From Lycorma delicatula (Eukaryota; Arthropoda; Insecta; Hemiptera; Fulgoridae): a stretch of 64,000 nucleotides of DNA. This document shows, piece after piece, positions 19,525 through 38,709 of the stretch. The notes below the pieces were generated by a model. That model saw only the letters and a program-made list of their open reading frames with translations, did not search any database and had not been told where the DNA came from. Both the position numbers and the translations under genes were made by a program. Numbering within the stretch: position 1 is the first letter of the stretch; each line of letters opens with the position of its first letter. The stretch spans positions 168,346,575 to 168,410,574 of the forward strand of contig NC_134455.1 in NCBI RefSeq assembly GCF_047948215.1. The letters are read 5' to 3'.

Positions 19525-20755
19525 TTAAGGTTGATTAAAAAAAGACTTCACAAATTTAAAAGCATATAAAAATCTATTGAGATAATTTACAGATTCGGTT
19601 GAGGTCTCATTTTGTTGAAAAACACATCAAGTTTTCTCCCAACATTCACTTTGATTCGATATGGCTTCCATTTTTAATGCGACATACATCCCACTCGAAG
19701 TCGATTTCATTCCAGTATGTAGCCAACAAGTCCGGCGTTACCTCTGCAGCTGCGGCGTTAATTCGAAGTCTTATCTCAACATGATCAGCAGGTGTACATA
19801 AATCCGATCGAATATCAAGAAAATCTCGGACTTTTAGGCGGTAGTGAAATGGTGCCCCGTTTTTCTGATAGTAATGGCGTCTATCTTGGTCGTCATCGTC
19901 TAAATGAGGAATTTGAAAATTTTGAAGATGTCCAGATAAACGGTACCATTTACCGTGGCCTCCTGGAAGAACGGGCCGTTCAATATTTGTTTGTATAGGA
20001 CACAATAAAGATTGACTTTAGGGCTATCATGAATGTGCTACAAAGATTCCTGAGGGTTTTTCCTACCCCACATATGGCAGTTGTGGTTGATCACCTAGCC
20101 ACTGATGTGGAACGTTGACTCATCATTAAAAATTACATTGTCTAAAAATGTATCGTCTGCAATTCTATCCATCATTTCCACACAAAACTGCAACCGAGCG
20201 ACTTTGTTTTCATCTATAATGAGTTGATCCACGATTAGTTTGTCTGGCTTTAAGTGCAATCTTTTACGTAATACGCGCCAGAATCATTTGTGGAAAGCCA
20301 ATCTCACGTGACGCACGACGAGTTGATTTCTTCGGACTACGTGTGAAGCTTTCTCTGAGCTGTTCCACAGCAGCTTCAGGGACTCGTGGGCGTCCTGGTG
20401 ATTTTGTATGTTTAACAGAACATTCTGTCTCAACGAAGGTTTGGTGCCAAGAGTAAATTGTACATCTACTAGGAGGCTCCCTACCGTACTTTTCTACGAA
20501 AATTACGTAGACCTGCAGTTGCTGACTGCAAATCGTGAAATCAAAACACACAGCGAGCACGTTTTCCACCAGTGAATATATCCATTTTAGCAACGCTGGT
20601 TACTACTGGTGGCCTAATTCGGTACTAATGAACTACGTGAGGCAAAACTTGATGTGTTTTACTATGAAACGAGAATTCAACCGAATCTGTAAGTTATTTA
20701 AATAAATTTTTATATGCTTTTAAGGTTGTGAAGTCGTTTTTGAATCACTTTGTAT
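19525..20755 (-). mobile_element. Tc1/mariner-type transposon with about 110-bp inverted repeats
   Basis: The first 110 bases (about 19525-19635) and last 110 (about 20644-20755) are imperfect inverted repeats. They share, among others, GACTTCACAA, TTAAAAGCATATAAAAAT, ACAGATTCGGTTGA and CACATCAAGTTTT. Between them the minus strand carries a decayed transposase. At about 1.23 kb it is close to the normal length of a mariner-like element, minus an internal loss. Exact termini and the expected TA target duplication could not be fixed because the left end has diverged. Confidence 0.8.
19646..20593 (-). pseudogene. Decayed Tc1/mariner transposase
   Basis: Read on the minus strand, the N-terminal part (20593 to about 20265) contains a helix-turn-helix region with GREPPSRCTIYSWHQTFVET and GRPRVPEAAVEQLRESF, as in the DUF4817-type DNA-binding domain of insect mariner-like transposases. 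It continues as LHLKPDKLIVDQ and NDESTFHISG (first catalytic Asp, about 20122), then MWGRKNP, DSPKVNLYC and GPFFQEATV. The next block reads QKNGAPFHY where active relatives have QQDGAPPHY, so the second catalytic Asp is Asn. The segment that normally follows (WIGR...PRSPDLTPLDFFLWG, third acidic residue) is missing: DFLDI runs straight into the C-terminal region ending VTPDLLATYWNEIDFEWDVC. In-frame TAG codons occur after FHISG and after NPQESL, and the frame changes near 20264 and 20005. It cannot make active enzyme. Confidence 0.85.
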
Positions 20756-25192: not shown

Positions 25193-25873
25193 AAGTAGAC
25201 CTCAGCATTTAAGCGGCCAGGTAATATGAACGGTCCTAACAGCTGAGATTCTACAGAAGGCCACACCATACACTGACGCTAAATCGGTGTTGAAAATTGC
25301 CTTCCACAGTTTCATTTAAGGTTTACTTCTGTCCATGTATGCTCATTGCGTAAGTTGATGCCACCTCGAGTGAAATTTGTCTCGTCGGTAAACAAAACAT
25401 ACTTGTATAGTTTACGATTTGTATTCCACCAGTTGCAGAACTCCAAGCGAAGCGGGAAGCGGATCGTCTCCTGAGTATAGATGTTGAGCTGGCTGTTTAT
25501 TATAAGGATAAACTTGTTTTGTTTAAGAATCCTCCAAGCCATCGAATGCAAAACTCCGATCCGCTTAGAAAGAGGTCGTGTACTGACGCCTGGACTGCGC
25601 TGAACTGCACGATAATAATTTTATCAATAACAGCGTCATGTTGAACAGATCATTCGTACTAACTACGAATGATCTGTTCAACATGTAGTAAATATGATAT
25701 GATATAGTAAACCTGTTTCCCGAAGATGCGAAAAATCGCGCTAATTGCTGTGGAATTTGGAATGCTGCGATTCGGAAAATGTTTTCATATTCTACTGTAG
25801 CATTACCATTACACACACCCAAAGTGAATACCATATCAGTGTATTCTTCTGTTGTAAATAACTTCAGTGACAT
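25193..25873 (-). pseudogene. Truncated mariner-like transposase between the long inverted repeats
   Basis: The minus strand begins MSLKLFTTEEYTDMVFTLG, the start typical of one insect mariner-like transposase group ('EYADMVFAYG...'). After a stretch interrupted by a perfect hairpin (25637-25685) and frame changes, it resumes MAWRILKQNKF, ETIRFPLRLEFCNWW and VLFTDETNFTRGGI, where FTDE holds the first catalytic Asp. A further shift gives FSVSVWCG and then GPFILPGRLNAEVYL at about 25193. The coding part stops there: the second and third catalytic residues and the whole C-terminus are absent, replaced directly by the left inverted repeat. Non-functional. Confidence 0.8.
25637..25685. repeat. Perfect 22-bp hairpin inside the mariner relic
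   Basis: CATGTTGAACAGATCATTCG... at 25637-25658 is exactly mirrored at 25664-25685 around a 5-base loop (CTAAC). It interrupts the transposase reading frame, so it arose after the element inserted or decayed. Confidence 0.95.
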
Positions 25874-26772
25874 TACATAACATGTACAGCATTACTTCAA
25901 TGCTGTACTTTATTGCATTACTTCAATGCAATGTTATTTACATGTAAGGCATTAATTCAATGGCAAACCCAACATGTTCAAACTAAAATTCACATAAAAC
26001 TTTCGCTAACGACAGCACAGTTCACAGTACCCGATCTACTTAATGCATCTTACAGAATTATTTAAACAGTAATACAGTATTGGGCATTGAAATCAACTGT
26101 TGTTATTTTATTGCAAACTTTGAAATAATAATTTTTCAAATAATTAATTGTATTTGTCATTAAAAAAAAATATTATCTAAGTAATTTATTTTAATTTTAT
26201 AATTGTTATGTAATTTCCTGCAATTTTTGACAGTAAATTTTGTTTTTATAAATTTTTCTCATCACAAATAAATAATTTTGTGTTTGTTTACATTAAATGC
26301 TAGTTTTCTGACAAATGTAGTAATGTACTCTTTCTAGATAAAATTCGAACTTTCTAACTTTTCTTTGTTTTATTAATCACTATTTGGTTCAAAATTAAAC
26401 TCTCAACAAGTTTTGTTTAAAGGTTTTTTGTATTTAATACCCGTCTAACAAAGTTATTGTATGCCAAACATATAAACAGGATTTTTACCCCAATGTATTG
26501 GTTTTCACCCCAGATTCTCAAACATTACGACAGATACAGTTCTGGGACCTATTTTATTCGATTTTTCAGGTCAGTAAACATAATTCTACCTCTTAATTAA
26601 TGTCCTAAAAATTTGAGTACAACTTCATTTCACCGAGGTAAGTTAGTTGAAATCCGAGCGAAATATTTCATTAGCGTTTCTCGCAAACGAAGCATTTTAG
26701 GAATGATGAACTTTTTCCTTTACTTTCATGAGTAGAATAGGTTATGAAAGTCTCGGAAGAACTTCCTGATAC

Positions 26773-35340: not shown

Positions 35341-36004
35341 TTTCACATTTATGTATTAGATTATTTGATAATCTAATTTTTAAATTGTTATAATAGTTTT
35401 TAATAAAAAAATTTTATGGTTTAATAATAGTAAAATTAACGTTCATGACATTTCTACGGTTGTTTTAACTCGAATAATTTTTTTTTCAATTTTTGATCAT
35501 AACCCATTGTTATTAGAAGAGATTAAAACATAATCTCTTATTGAGATTCCACGACTGAAATCGGCATGATTAGTAACGGCATGATATCCGTTTGTTTAGA
35601 ATTCATTTTGCACTGTCAGCATTTTATATACTTCACACGTACTCGTATTTTAATAGTACTCTCTAATAGCTTGCTATCAAGTAGAACTTAGAAAGATTTC
35701 TACAAATCCCTTCCGACCTATTTCCAGAAAACTGGGGAAAGTGATCAAAAAATATTTTATAACTTTGCGAAAACATAGATATAGTGTGAAGCATTCAGGA
35801 AATCCTATTACAATAGTCAGTGGCGGCTCGCGTATAGGCACTGTGGAACTGCAGCACCCCCTATTTCCACTTGATATTATCGATAACATTTAATATAATG
35901 AGTCCTTTTTTCTTTAATTCTTTCTTTATACTTGTATAGTATTTAATCCTTAAGCTTAATGTCAGTAGCCGTCCCCCAGTTTATGAAAAATACACAAAAA
36001 TATT

Positions 36005-36262
36005 TGTATGGGACTGTGCGCTTCACAGTTCCAGCGGCGTGGTGTTAGGCTGTTGTGCGCATGCGCACAGAAAGCTGTACGGGAGGTGCGGGGAGGGAGA
36101 GAGTACTGTCGCTCCCGCAGTACCTACCCTGGCGTGCTGGTGGAAGGTACTTTTTTTTACTCCGCGTATGTACGGAACGCTCCTTGTTCGTTCCCTTTTC
36201 TAGTTTAGTCGGTGGAAGAAATATGAAAATGGTTTAGTTGTTTTTTCAATAGTGATCAGGAG
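36005..36262 (+). promoter_or_regulatory. Probable captured amphiphysin promoter and 5' leader
   Basis: This GC-rich block stands out from its AT-rich surroundings and ends directly at the amphiphysin ATG. It contains a perfect 16-bp palindrome, TGTGCGCATGCGCACA, at 36054-36069; its core TGCGCATGCGCA is the recognition motif of NRF1 and its insect orthologue erect wing (EWG), typical of housekeeping and neuronal promoters. There is no obvious TATA box. A five-codon upstream reading frame (ATG at 36223, stop at 36235-36237) would lie in the leader if transcription starts upstream of it. Being carried by a transposon, the block could act as a mobile promoter. Transcription is not demonstrated. 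Confidence 0.5.
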
Positions 36263-36331
36263 ATGGCGGAAAGCAAGGGCTCTTTGACCGCCAGATATGT
36301 CCAAAAACATGCTGGAAGGGCGAAAGAGAAG
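36263..36331 (+). CDS. Amph: Captured first coding exon of amphiphysin (partial, inside the transposon)
   Basis: Amphiphysin is an N-BAR and SH3 protein that binds and curves membranes; in insects it organises muscle T-tubules, and in vertebrates it also acts in endocytosis. This exon encodes 23 residues starting MAESKGSL and ending VQKHAGRAKEK, matching the N-terminal amphipathic helix (H0) that precedes the BAR domain. The insect family has the same 'VQKHAGRAKEK' string, while vertebrate proteins read closer to 'VQKRLNRAQEK'. The ATG has purines at -1 and -3 (AGGAGATGGCG). The exon ends AAG followed by GTAATT, a good donor in phase 0, where the conserved ILQ/VLQ segment would continue in the next exon. 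No further amphiphysin exon is visible in the window, and the exon lies wholly between the transposon's inverted repeats, so it is most likely a transduplicated copy, not the native gene. I saw no stop or frameshift in it. Confidence 0.78.
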
Positions 36332-36619
36332 GTAATTAATTATGAATTTTTTTCTGAGTACATAGAAATTTAAATTAGCACCACTTGACTTTAGTGGTTT
36401 TAAGCGGACATTTTATTAAGTTATTATCTAATCATACTAAAAAAATATTATCTGTATGAGATTTTATTATTTATTTGGTTAAACCGAATACGGGTTTTAA
36501 GCACAATGTGTTTAAGATGCCGTGCACCATATTCTTGAATGTGATAAAGTGTAGAATTAGATTACTATCCTGCTTCCAGCTATTCTATTTGATTTATTTT
36601 TCTTCGGTTCTGTTTACAG
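36332..36619 (+). other. Putative intron following the captured exon
   Basis: Sequence begins GTAATTAAT right after the amphiphysin exon and turns AT-rich. It ends with a pyrimidine-rich tract and TTTACAG at 36613-36619, a plausible acceptor, about 85 bp before the transposon's right end. The 3' part may equally be ordinary transposon subterminal sequence. In the frame reached from 36475 the DNA after the acceptor reads ENFNHGLEKAQKKLSEA and stops with a TGA formed by the last two transposon bases plus the first base of the target duplication. A phase-0 join from the amphiphysin exon would instead hit a stop after about 20 codons. I do not recognise this second peptide. Confidence 0.3.
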
Positions 36620-36714
36620 AAAACTTTAACCATGGCCTTGAAAAGGCCCAGAAAAAACTTTCTGAAGCATCACTCCCATTAATATTAGCTGGGAGCCGCC
36701 ACTGACAATAGTTA

Positions 36715-38339: not shown

Positions 38340-38709
38340 AATTTCATAATTTTTTTTTATAAAAATGTAGTGGTAAATATGGCTAGGCCTGCTATGTAAA
38401 TAAAAATTAAAAGTATTTTGACATTTCTCTTCTGTTTTTTATCGGTCAGATAATAATTTATTATTTTAATTCTTACTTTTTGTTCCATTATTTTTTCTTA
38501 GTAGACAATAATTTGTAAAAAGTAATTCATAATTTCATAATTTTTTTTTATAAAAATGTAGTGGTAAATATGGCTAGGCCTGCTATGTAAATAAAAATTA
38601 AAAGTATTTTGACATTTCTCTTCTGTTTTTTATCGGTCAGATAATAATTTATTATTTTAATTCTTACTTTTTGTTCCATTATTTTTTCTTAGTAGACAAT
38701 AATTTGTAA
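38340..38709. repeat. Perfect 179-bp direct duplication (period 191)
   Basis: 38340-38518 and 38531-38709 are identical at every base I compared, including a 9-T run, separated by 12 bases (AAAGTAATTCAT). The unit contains GGCTAGGCCTGCTATG and TCTTCTGTTTTTTATCGGTC. No coding function or transposon ends are seen. Identity implies a recent duplication, or an assembly artefact. Confidence 0.95.

Follow-up and report, generated by a model that had tools for sequence, protein, structure and literature searches.

A large hAT-type transposon family of the spotted lanternfly, Lycorma delicatula, with an apparently captured amphiphysin start exon

Several systems are known in which transposons carry pieces of host genes. 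In the animal-wide survey of Tan et al. (2021; PMC8277862), 370 Pack-TIRs are described from 100 animals, with 208 of hAT type and four that are multicopy. As described there, no Pack-TIRs occur in insect reference genomes, and one FB4-based family, Ssk-FB4, is reported from fly populations (PMC8277862). The survey also presents Pack-hAT-N8_XT of the western clawed frog, which contains 291 bp of the CAPSL 5′ UTR and lies on three chromosomes, and it describes microhomology as common at the breakpoints of animal Pack-TIRs (PMC8277862). A bat Helitron, HelibatN3, is described as having captured the NUBPL promoter, six codons, and a splice donor, and its amplified copies trap downstream exons (PMC4778049). 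Among plant hAT elements, one in maize is reported to extend an exon and to supply a donor site (PMC8903248).

We analyzed a stretch of 64,000 nucleotides (the window) from Lycorma delicatula, the spotted lanternfly (Hemiptera, Fulgoridae). In the window, an 887-bp hAT-like element at 35818-36704 contains the first coding exon of amphiphysin and its splice donor. Like the animal Pack-TIRs of the survey, the lanternfly elements hold host DNA between hAT inverted termini (TIRs), have a parent elsewhere, and occur as copies with distinct target-site duplications (TSDs); unlike those described there, they give about two thousand genome matches, reside in an insect, and contain a whole start exon with its donor (PMC8277862). 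The plant Pack-TYPE elements, Pack-hAT included, are likewise described as non-autonomous TIR elements with gene fragments and, for hAT, an 8-bp TSD, but their hosts are plants and their families and cargo are others (PMC8903248). HelibatN3 is nearest in layout, as a captured gene start that was amplified (PMC4778049). However, it is a rolling-circle element rather than one with TIRs and a TSD, and its cargo includes a promoter, whereas the lanternfly cargo has none (PMC4778049). Chimeric transcripts were reported for HelibatN3 (PMC4778049), whereas the lanternfly family is described from its DNA. The lanternfly family combines a TIR element, a first-exon cargo, and a high copy number, and is a multicopy insect Pack-hAT. 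In the literature searched, which excludes preprints and most subscription journals, we found no paper on this amphiphysin-carrying family.

The inverted ends of the window element are perfect over 12 bp, with CAGTGGCGGCTC at 35818-35829 and its exact reverse complement at 36693-36704. The 8-bp target duplication, ACAATAGT at 35810-35817 and 36705-36712, is also perfect, and direct reading thus bears out both as they stood in the original prediction. The 12-bp terminus occurs at just two sites in the window, both perfect and both at the element ends. By chance, 0.27 terminus matches with two or fewer mismatches are expected in the window, and 4 of 100 shuffles reached two. The features, in the coordinates of the window, are as follows.

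35810-35817, no strand: left TSD ACAATAGT (direct read and family TSD test)
35818-35829, plus strand: left 12-bp TIR CAGTGGCGGCTC (direct read)
35818-36168, plus strand: left arm of the hAT-type element, including a GC-rich stretch at about 36005-36168 (common to elements with no amphiphysin DNA)
about 36169-36480, plus strand: apparently captured amphiphysin DNA, 323 bp in the consensus, consisting of 94 bp of leader, exon 1, and 160 bp of intron 1 (match to locus L068)
36263-36331, plus strand: amphiphysin exon 1, 23 codons with three missense changes in the window copy, then donor GTAATT
36481-36704, plus strand: right arm, beginning with about 26 bp of inverted-repeat filler (consensus 679-704) and continuing as hAT-element DNA
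36613-36619: acceptor-like TTTACAG in the right arm
36693-36704, minus strand: right 12-bp TIR (direct read)
36705-36712, no strand: right TSD ACAATAGT (direct read)

We take the CAGTGGCGGCTC ends to be short, CAG-rich TIRs of the hAT type. Helitrons have neither TIRs nor a TSD, and a HelibatN3-like Helitron identity was rejected because the element has both. The TSD of the window copy and of the family is 8 bp, the length described for hAT elements (PMC8903248).

With the window element as the query, the best 40 of 5,466 first-look candidates gave 41 matches, namely 40 near-full copies (the window copy included; the others at 83-88%) and one 82-bp fragment at 78%. These 40 copies, the window copy plus 39 fetched ones, were picked by whole-element similarity to the window and not by the exon. 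The family consensus has a length of 905 bp and an exon whose 23 residues are those of the native protein. A 36-mer spanning the exon end and the donor matched the genome at 1,137 + 1,099 = 2,236 places with three or fewer mismatches, the native exon among them, and a 36-mer of the left arm at 981 + 975 = 1,956 places; these totals count matches and not independent jumps, some being later duplicates. The reversed-pattern control of the exon/donor 36-mer and the control of the left-arm 36-mer both gave 0 matches. The original prediction had proposed a search for other copies with the same ends and exon, and these were found, with about two thousand genome matches and 40 near-full copies compared.

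The TSDs of the 40 copies are perfect in nine, and differ by one mismatch in 11, by two in seven, and by three in two; the other 11 (five or more mismatches) have no recognizable TSD, and some of them may reflect ends misplaced by the script. The 8-bp flanks agree with two or fewer mismatches in 27 of the 40 copies. When the right flanks were permuted 10,000 times, such agreement was seen in 1.2 copies on average and never in more than 7, which rules out chance at the level of the family. All 40 left flanks are different. Divergence is star-like, with a mean of 7.2% from the consensus and a pairwise mean of 13.2% (minimum 9.7%). A separate observation concerns three loci read from the left-arm matches. 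Over 501 bp, L100 shows no difference from L101 and is 99.2% identical to L090, whereas no two of the 40 copies are less than 9.7% apart; the three probably travelled as part of a larger and younger repeat or duplication.

The native gene was located with a termite amphiphysin (P0098), which gave 102 matches of 2,818 candidates, comprising six later exons and 96 exon-1-like places. The six later exons lie on contig C9 (22,683,307-22,718,010), and the window is on contig C1. One exon-1-like match, L068, is at C9 22,363,933, on the same strand as the later exons and 319 kb upstream of exon 2. The 2.4 kb read there contains no hAT arms, and the match to the consensus is confined to 356-678, with 319 of 323 positions identical. 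Bases 1057-1379 of L068 differ from the consensus at 0 of 94 positions in the leader, at two in the exon (both synonymous), and at 2 of 160 in the intron. All 14 other exon-1 places with loci (L054-L067) run on into element arms; the remaining ones were read just where they are among the 39 fetched copies. Given its position, strand, and lack of arms, L068 is the apparent native exon 1 and the apparent parent of the cargo. A Pack-TIR has host-gene DNA between its TIRs and a transposon-free parental copy elsewhere, and L068 is apparently such a copy. The comparison with the native gene that the original prediction had called for therefore favors capture, exon 1 being apparent at L068 with the arms absent within the 2.4 kb read.

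The protein joined from the native exons best matches L. delicatula amphiphysin P0121 (94%). P0121 and P0122, both annotated as L. delicatula amphiphysin, begin with MAESKGSLIAKSVQKHAGRAKEK and have ten extra residues, VKSSSLQFRK, where the products of exons 1 and 2 meet. Of the 203 proteins compared, just these two have such residues, and P0174 has a different insert. Other hemipteran amphiphysins have residues like GDQKMAESKG upstream of the start, so the leader resembles part of the predicted proteins there. In the same non-coding parts, the copies differ from the consensus at 5.5-5.7% of non-CpG sites, and the native leader and intron start each hold fewer changes than equal neutral rates predict (Poisson approximately 0.005 each). 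This points either to constraint acting on the native leader and the start of the intron or to the copies having changed faster.

In the window copy, the exon at 36263-36331 encodes MAESKGSLTARYVQKHAGRAKEK, with GTAATT directly 3′. The 23-residue exon corresponds to residues 1-23 of Drosophila amphiphysin (PDB 1uru_A, E 5.7e-4), the single distinct sequence returned when solved structures were searched by sequence with E up to 10. A tblastn search of the window with 120 insect amphiphysins gave 117 hit rows at the exon (best E 2.6e-7), and the next-best place had an E of 0.011. This search found no amphiphysin exon 2 in the window, including the 27 kb downstream of the exon. The amphiphysin start exon of the original prediction is thus present with its ATG, frame, and donor intact, but it departs from both the native exon and the consensus at residues 9, 11, and 12. 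A frame in the right arm (LEKAQKKL) was considered as a second amphiphysin exon and rejected, since the right arm is absent from L068 and its start is common to L087, an element with no amphiphysin DNA. Elsewhere in the window, two broken frames at 19646-20599 and 25312-25891, both on the minus strand, are presumably the remains of DNA transposons; a Pfam search of seven window frames gave one weak HTH_32 match, under the cut-off, at 20264-20596. A perfect tandem duplication (191-bp unit, 1.9 copies) lies at 38340-38709. An Rfam scan of the window gave 0 matches.

We read 36 of the 100 listed exact left-arm matches, 16 as 1.1-kb stretches spaced roughly through the list and 20 as 0.5-kb stretches. 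The 20 comprise all other listed matches on C1 and in the initial part of C2, with the window and one known copy omitted, and among the 36, L079 is the same as L020 of the first 39. The entire exon aligns in 22 of these loci, and 30 bp or more of captured DNA is present in 27, five of which (L073, L076, L097, L099, and L103) are partial. The nine with no captured DNA are four empty elements (L072, L087, L093, and L098) and five loci (L074, L078, L083, L084, and L102) that are truncated, interrupted, or unmatched and tell neither way. The four empty elements pass from consensus ~356-358 straight to ~705-714; neither the amphiphysin DNA nor the 26 bp next to it is present in them. A related cargo-free element, as looked for in the case of a Pack-TIR, is thus present in 4 of 36 sampled loci. 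Joined from the consensus arms, the empty element is about 560 bp long, too short for a hAT transposase. The left arms of the empty elements are 86-92% identical to the consensus over the compared stretch, four being too few for an age ranking. Their origin as deletion derivatives of the filled element appears disfavored, because all four miss the same stretch and the sampled deletion derivatives end elsewhere.

Both junctions of the cargo can be compared with the empty element and the native gene. At the 5′ junction, L087 has GCGTGTGT followed by TGTG, the filled element has GCGTGTGT followed by ATGG, and the native gene has AACACTGT followed by ATGG, with TGT in common. The 26-bp filler at the 3′ junction consists of AAACCGAATA, an exact reverse complement of the native TATTCGGTTT at the breakpoint, and 16 further bases that come close to the reverse complement of the element DNA immediately after them in the consensus. 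These marks, the TGT and the inverted-repeat filler, are of the kind that template switching with fold-back synthesis would leave.

A captured promoter, which the original prediction had included, does not hold up. The amphiphysin DNA reaches just 94 bp upstream of the ATG, and the GC-rich stretch at 36005-36168 was not part of the capture because it occurs in L072, L087, L093, and L098. A separate host donor for the GC-rich part was also rejected: the best 40 of 4,270 candidates matched at 93-97%, with none near 99%, and the three GC-rich matches with loci (L069-L071) are element copies. A perfect palindrome, TGTGCGCATGCGCACA, lies at 36054-36069 in the GC-rich arm that belongs to the element itself; it is kept in the consensus, and we take it to resemble an NRF1-type promoter motif. 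It is possible that this transposon stretch could act as a promoter, for example via the palindrome.

The window element is very probably a copy of a large non-autonomous hAT-type Pack-TIR family of L. delicatula with a captured amphiphysin start. The uptake of the first coding exon with its donor by a hAT-like element, the core of the original prediction, is well supported by the sequence comparisons, with an armless parent at L068, existing empty elements, and many copies. The shorter cargo-free element would represent the pre-capture state. Judging from the junctions, the 323-bp cargo may have entered the element when template switching occurred during its repair. The enlarged 905-bp element would then have been moved by a hAT transposase supplied in trans, and the filled element may have been amplified in a burst. 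Points that weigh against this reading are the 11 copies with no recognizable TSD, the later duplicates among the matches, and, for L068 as the parent, the ten additional residues of the annotated protein. An alternative in which amphiphysin has its true first exon in the window copy and the flanking inverted repeats are incidental would agree with the conserved exon and its intact ATG, frame, and donor. This reading is barely conceivable, since the later exons are on another contig with no exon 2 in the window, 39 other copies were read with the same arms, and the window copy has three missense changes whereas L068 has none. Amphiphysin exon 1 might also have come to lie between two inserted hAT elements that then moved together, as joint mobilization of neighboring insertions has been proposed for plant Pack-TYPE elements (PMC8903248). 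We consider such a composite unit very unlikely: a single empty element accounts for both arms of the filled one, with the breaks at the same points (consensus ~355-358 and 705), L068 has no hAT remnant in the 2.4 kb read, and the 3′ junction has an inverted-repeat filler.

The Pack-TIR reading leaves room for a role of the exon after capture. As an active exon trap, which the original prediction had inferred, the copies would give downstream exons a transcription start and an in-frame N-terminal amphiphysin helix. Of the 40 copies, 22 keep the start codon, the 23-codon frame, and the GT donor. A promoter could reside in the GC-rich arm, and the bat Helitron with its NUBPL promoter, six codons, and donor is reported to make chimeric transcripts (PMC4778049). 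However, the exons of the 40 copies have 133 replacement and 51 silent changes from the consensus, an N:S of 2.61; with the substitution spectrum seen elsewhere in the element, neutrality predicts 2.81. The exon is decaying neutrally in these copies, which behave as passengers. No fusion protein was found among 65 proteins (of 67 candidates, E up to 10, in a query region of 40 residues made up of leader and exon), a search covering annotated proteins of 0.55-1.75 times the 279-residue query length and thus missing short and long fusions. Of the 65, 63 carry the BAR domain PF03114, and the other two, P0204 and P0205, were rejected as fusions because they are open frames reading through exon 1 into intron-like sequence. 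The acceptor-like TTTACAG of the window copy is also in the consensus, with a similar form in L087, so a transcript might splice inside the element. We therefore regard an active exon trap as unlikely. The layout of exon and donor could nevertheless occasionally give downstream sequence a new start or N-terminal exon.

In the animal-wide survey, gene capture by TIR transposons is described as nearly always single-copy and as absent from insect reference genomes (PMC8277862). In the lanternfly, one genome contains an apparent parent, the cargo-free element, the two junctions, and some two thousand descendants, so the capture route is readable at the base level. For annotation, a conserved amphiphysin exon 1 in the L. 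delicatula genome is usually transposon DNA. It is unlikely, though conceivable, that the roughly two thousand start exons form a reservoir from which some become new first exons of nearby genes, and that transcripts or small RNAs of copies having 323 bp in common with the native leader act back on amphiphysin. If so, the low divergence of the native leader and intron (0/94 and 2/160, compared with about 5.5-5.7%) would be part of this feedback relation. With a start codon and donor present at such a scale, the lanternfly genome offers a natural experiment in whether scattered first exons give rise to new genes.
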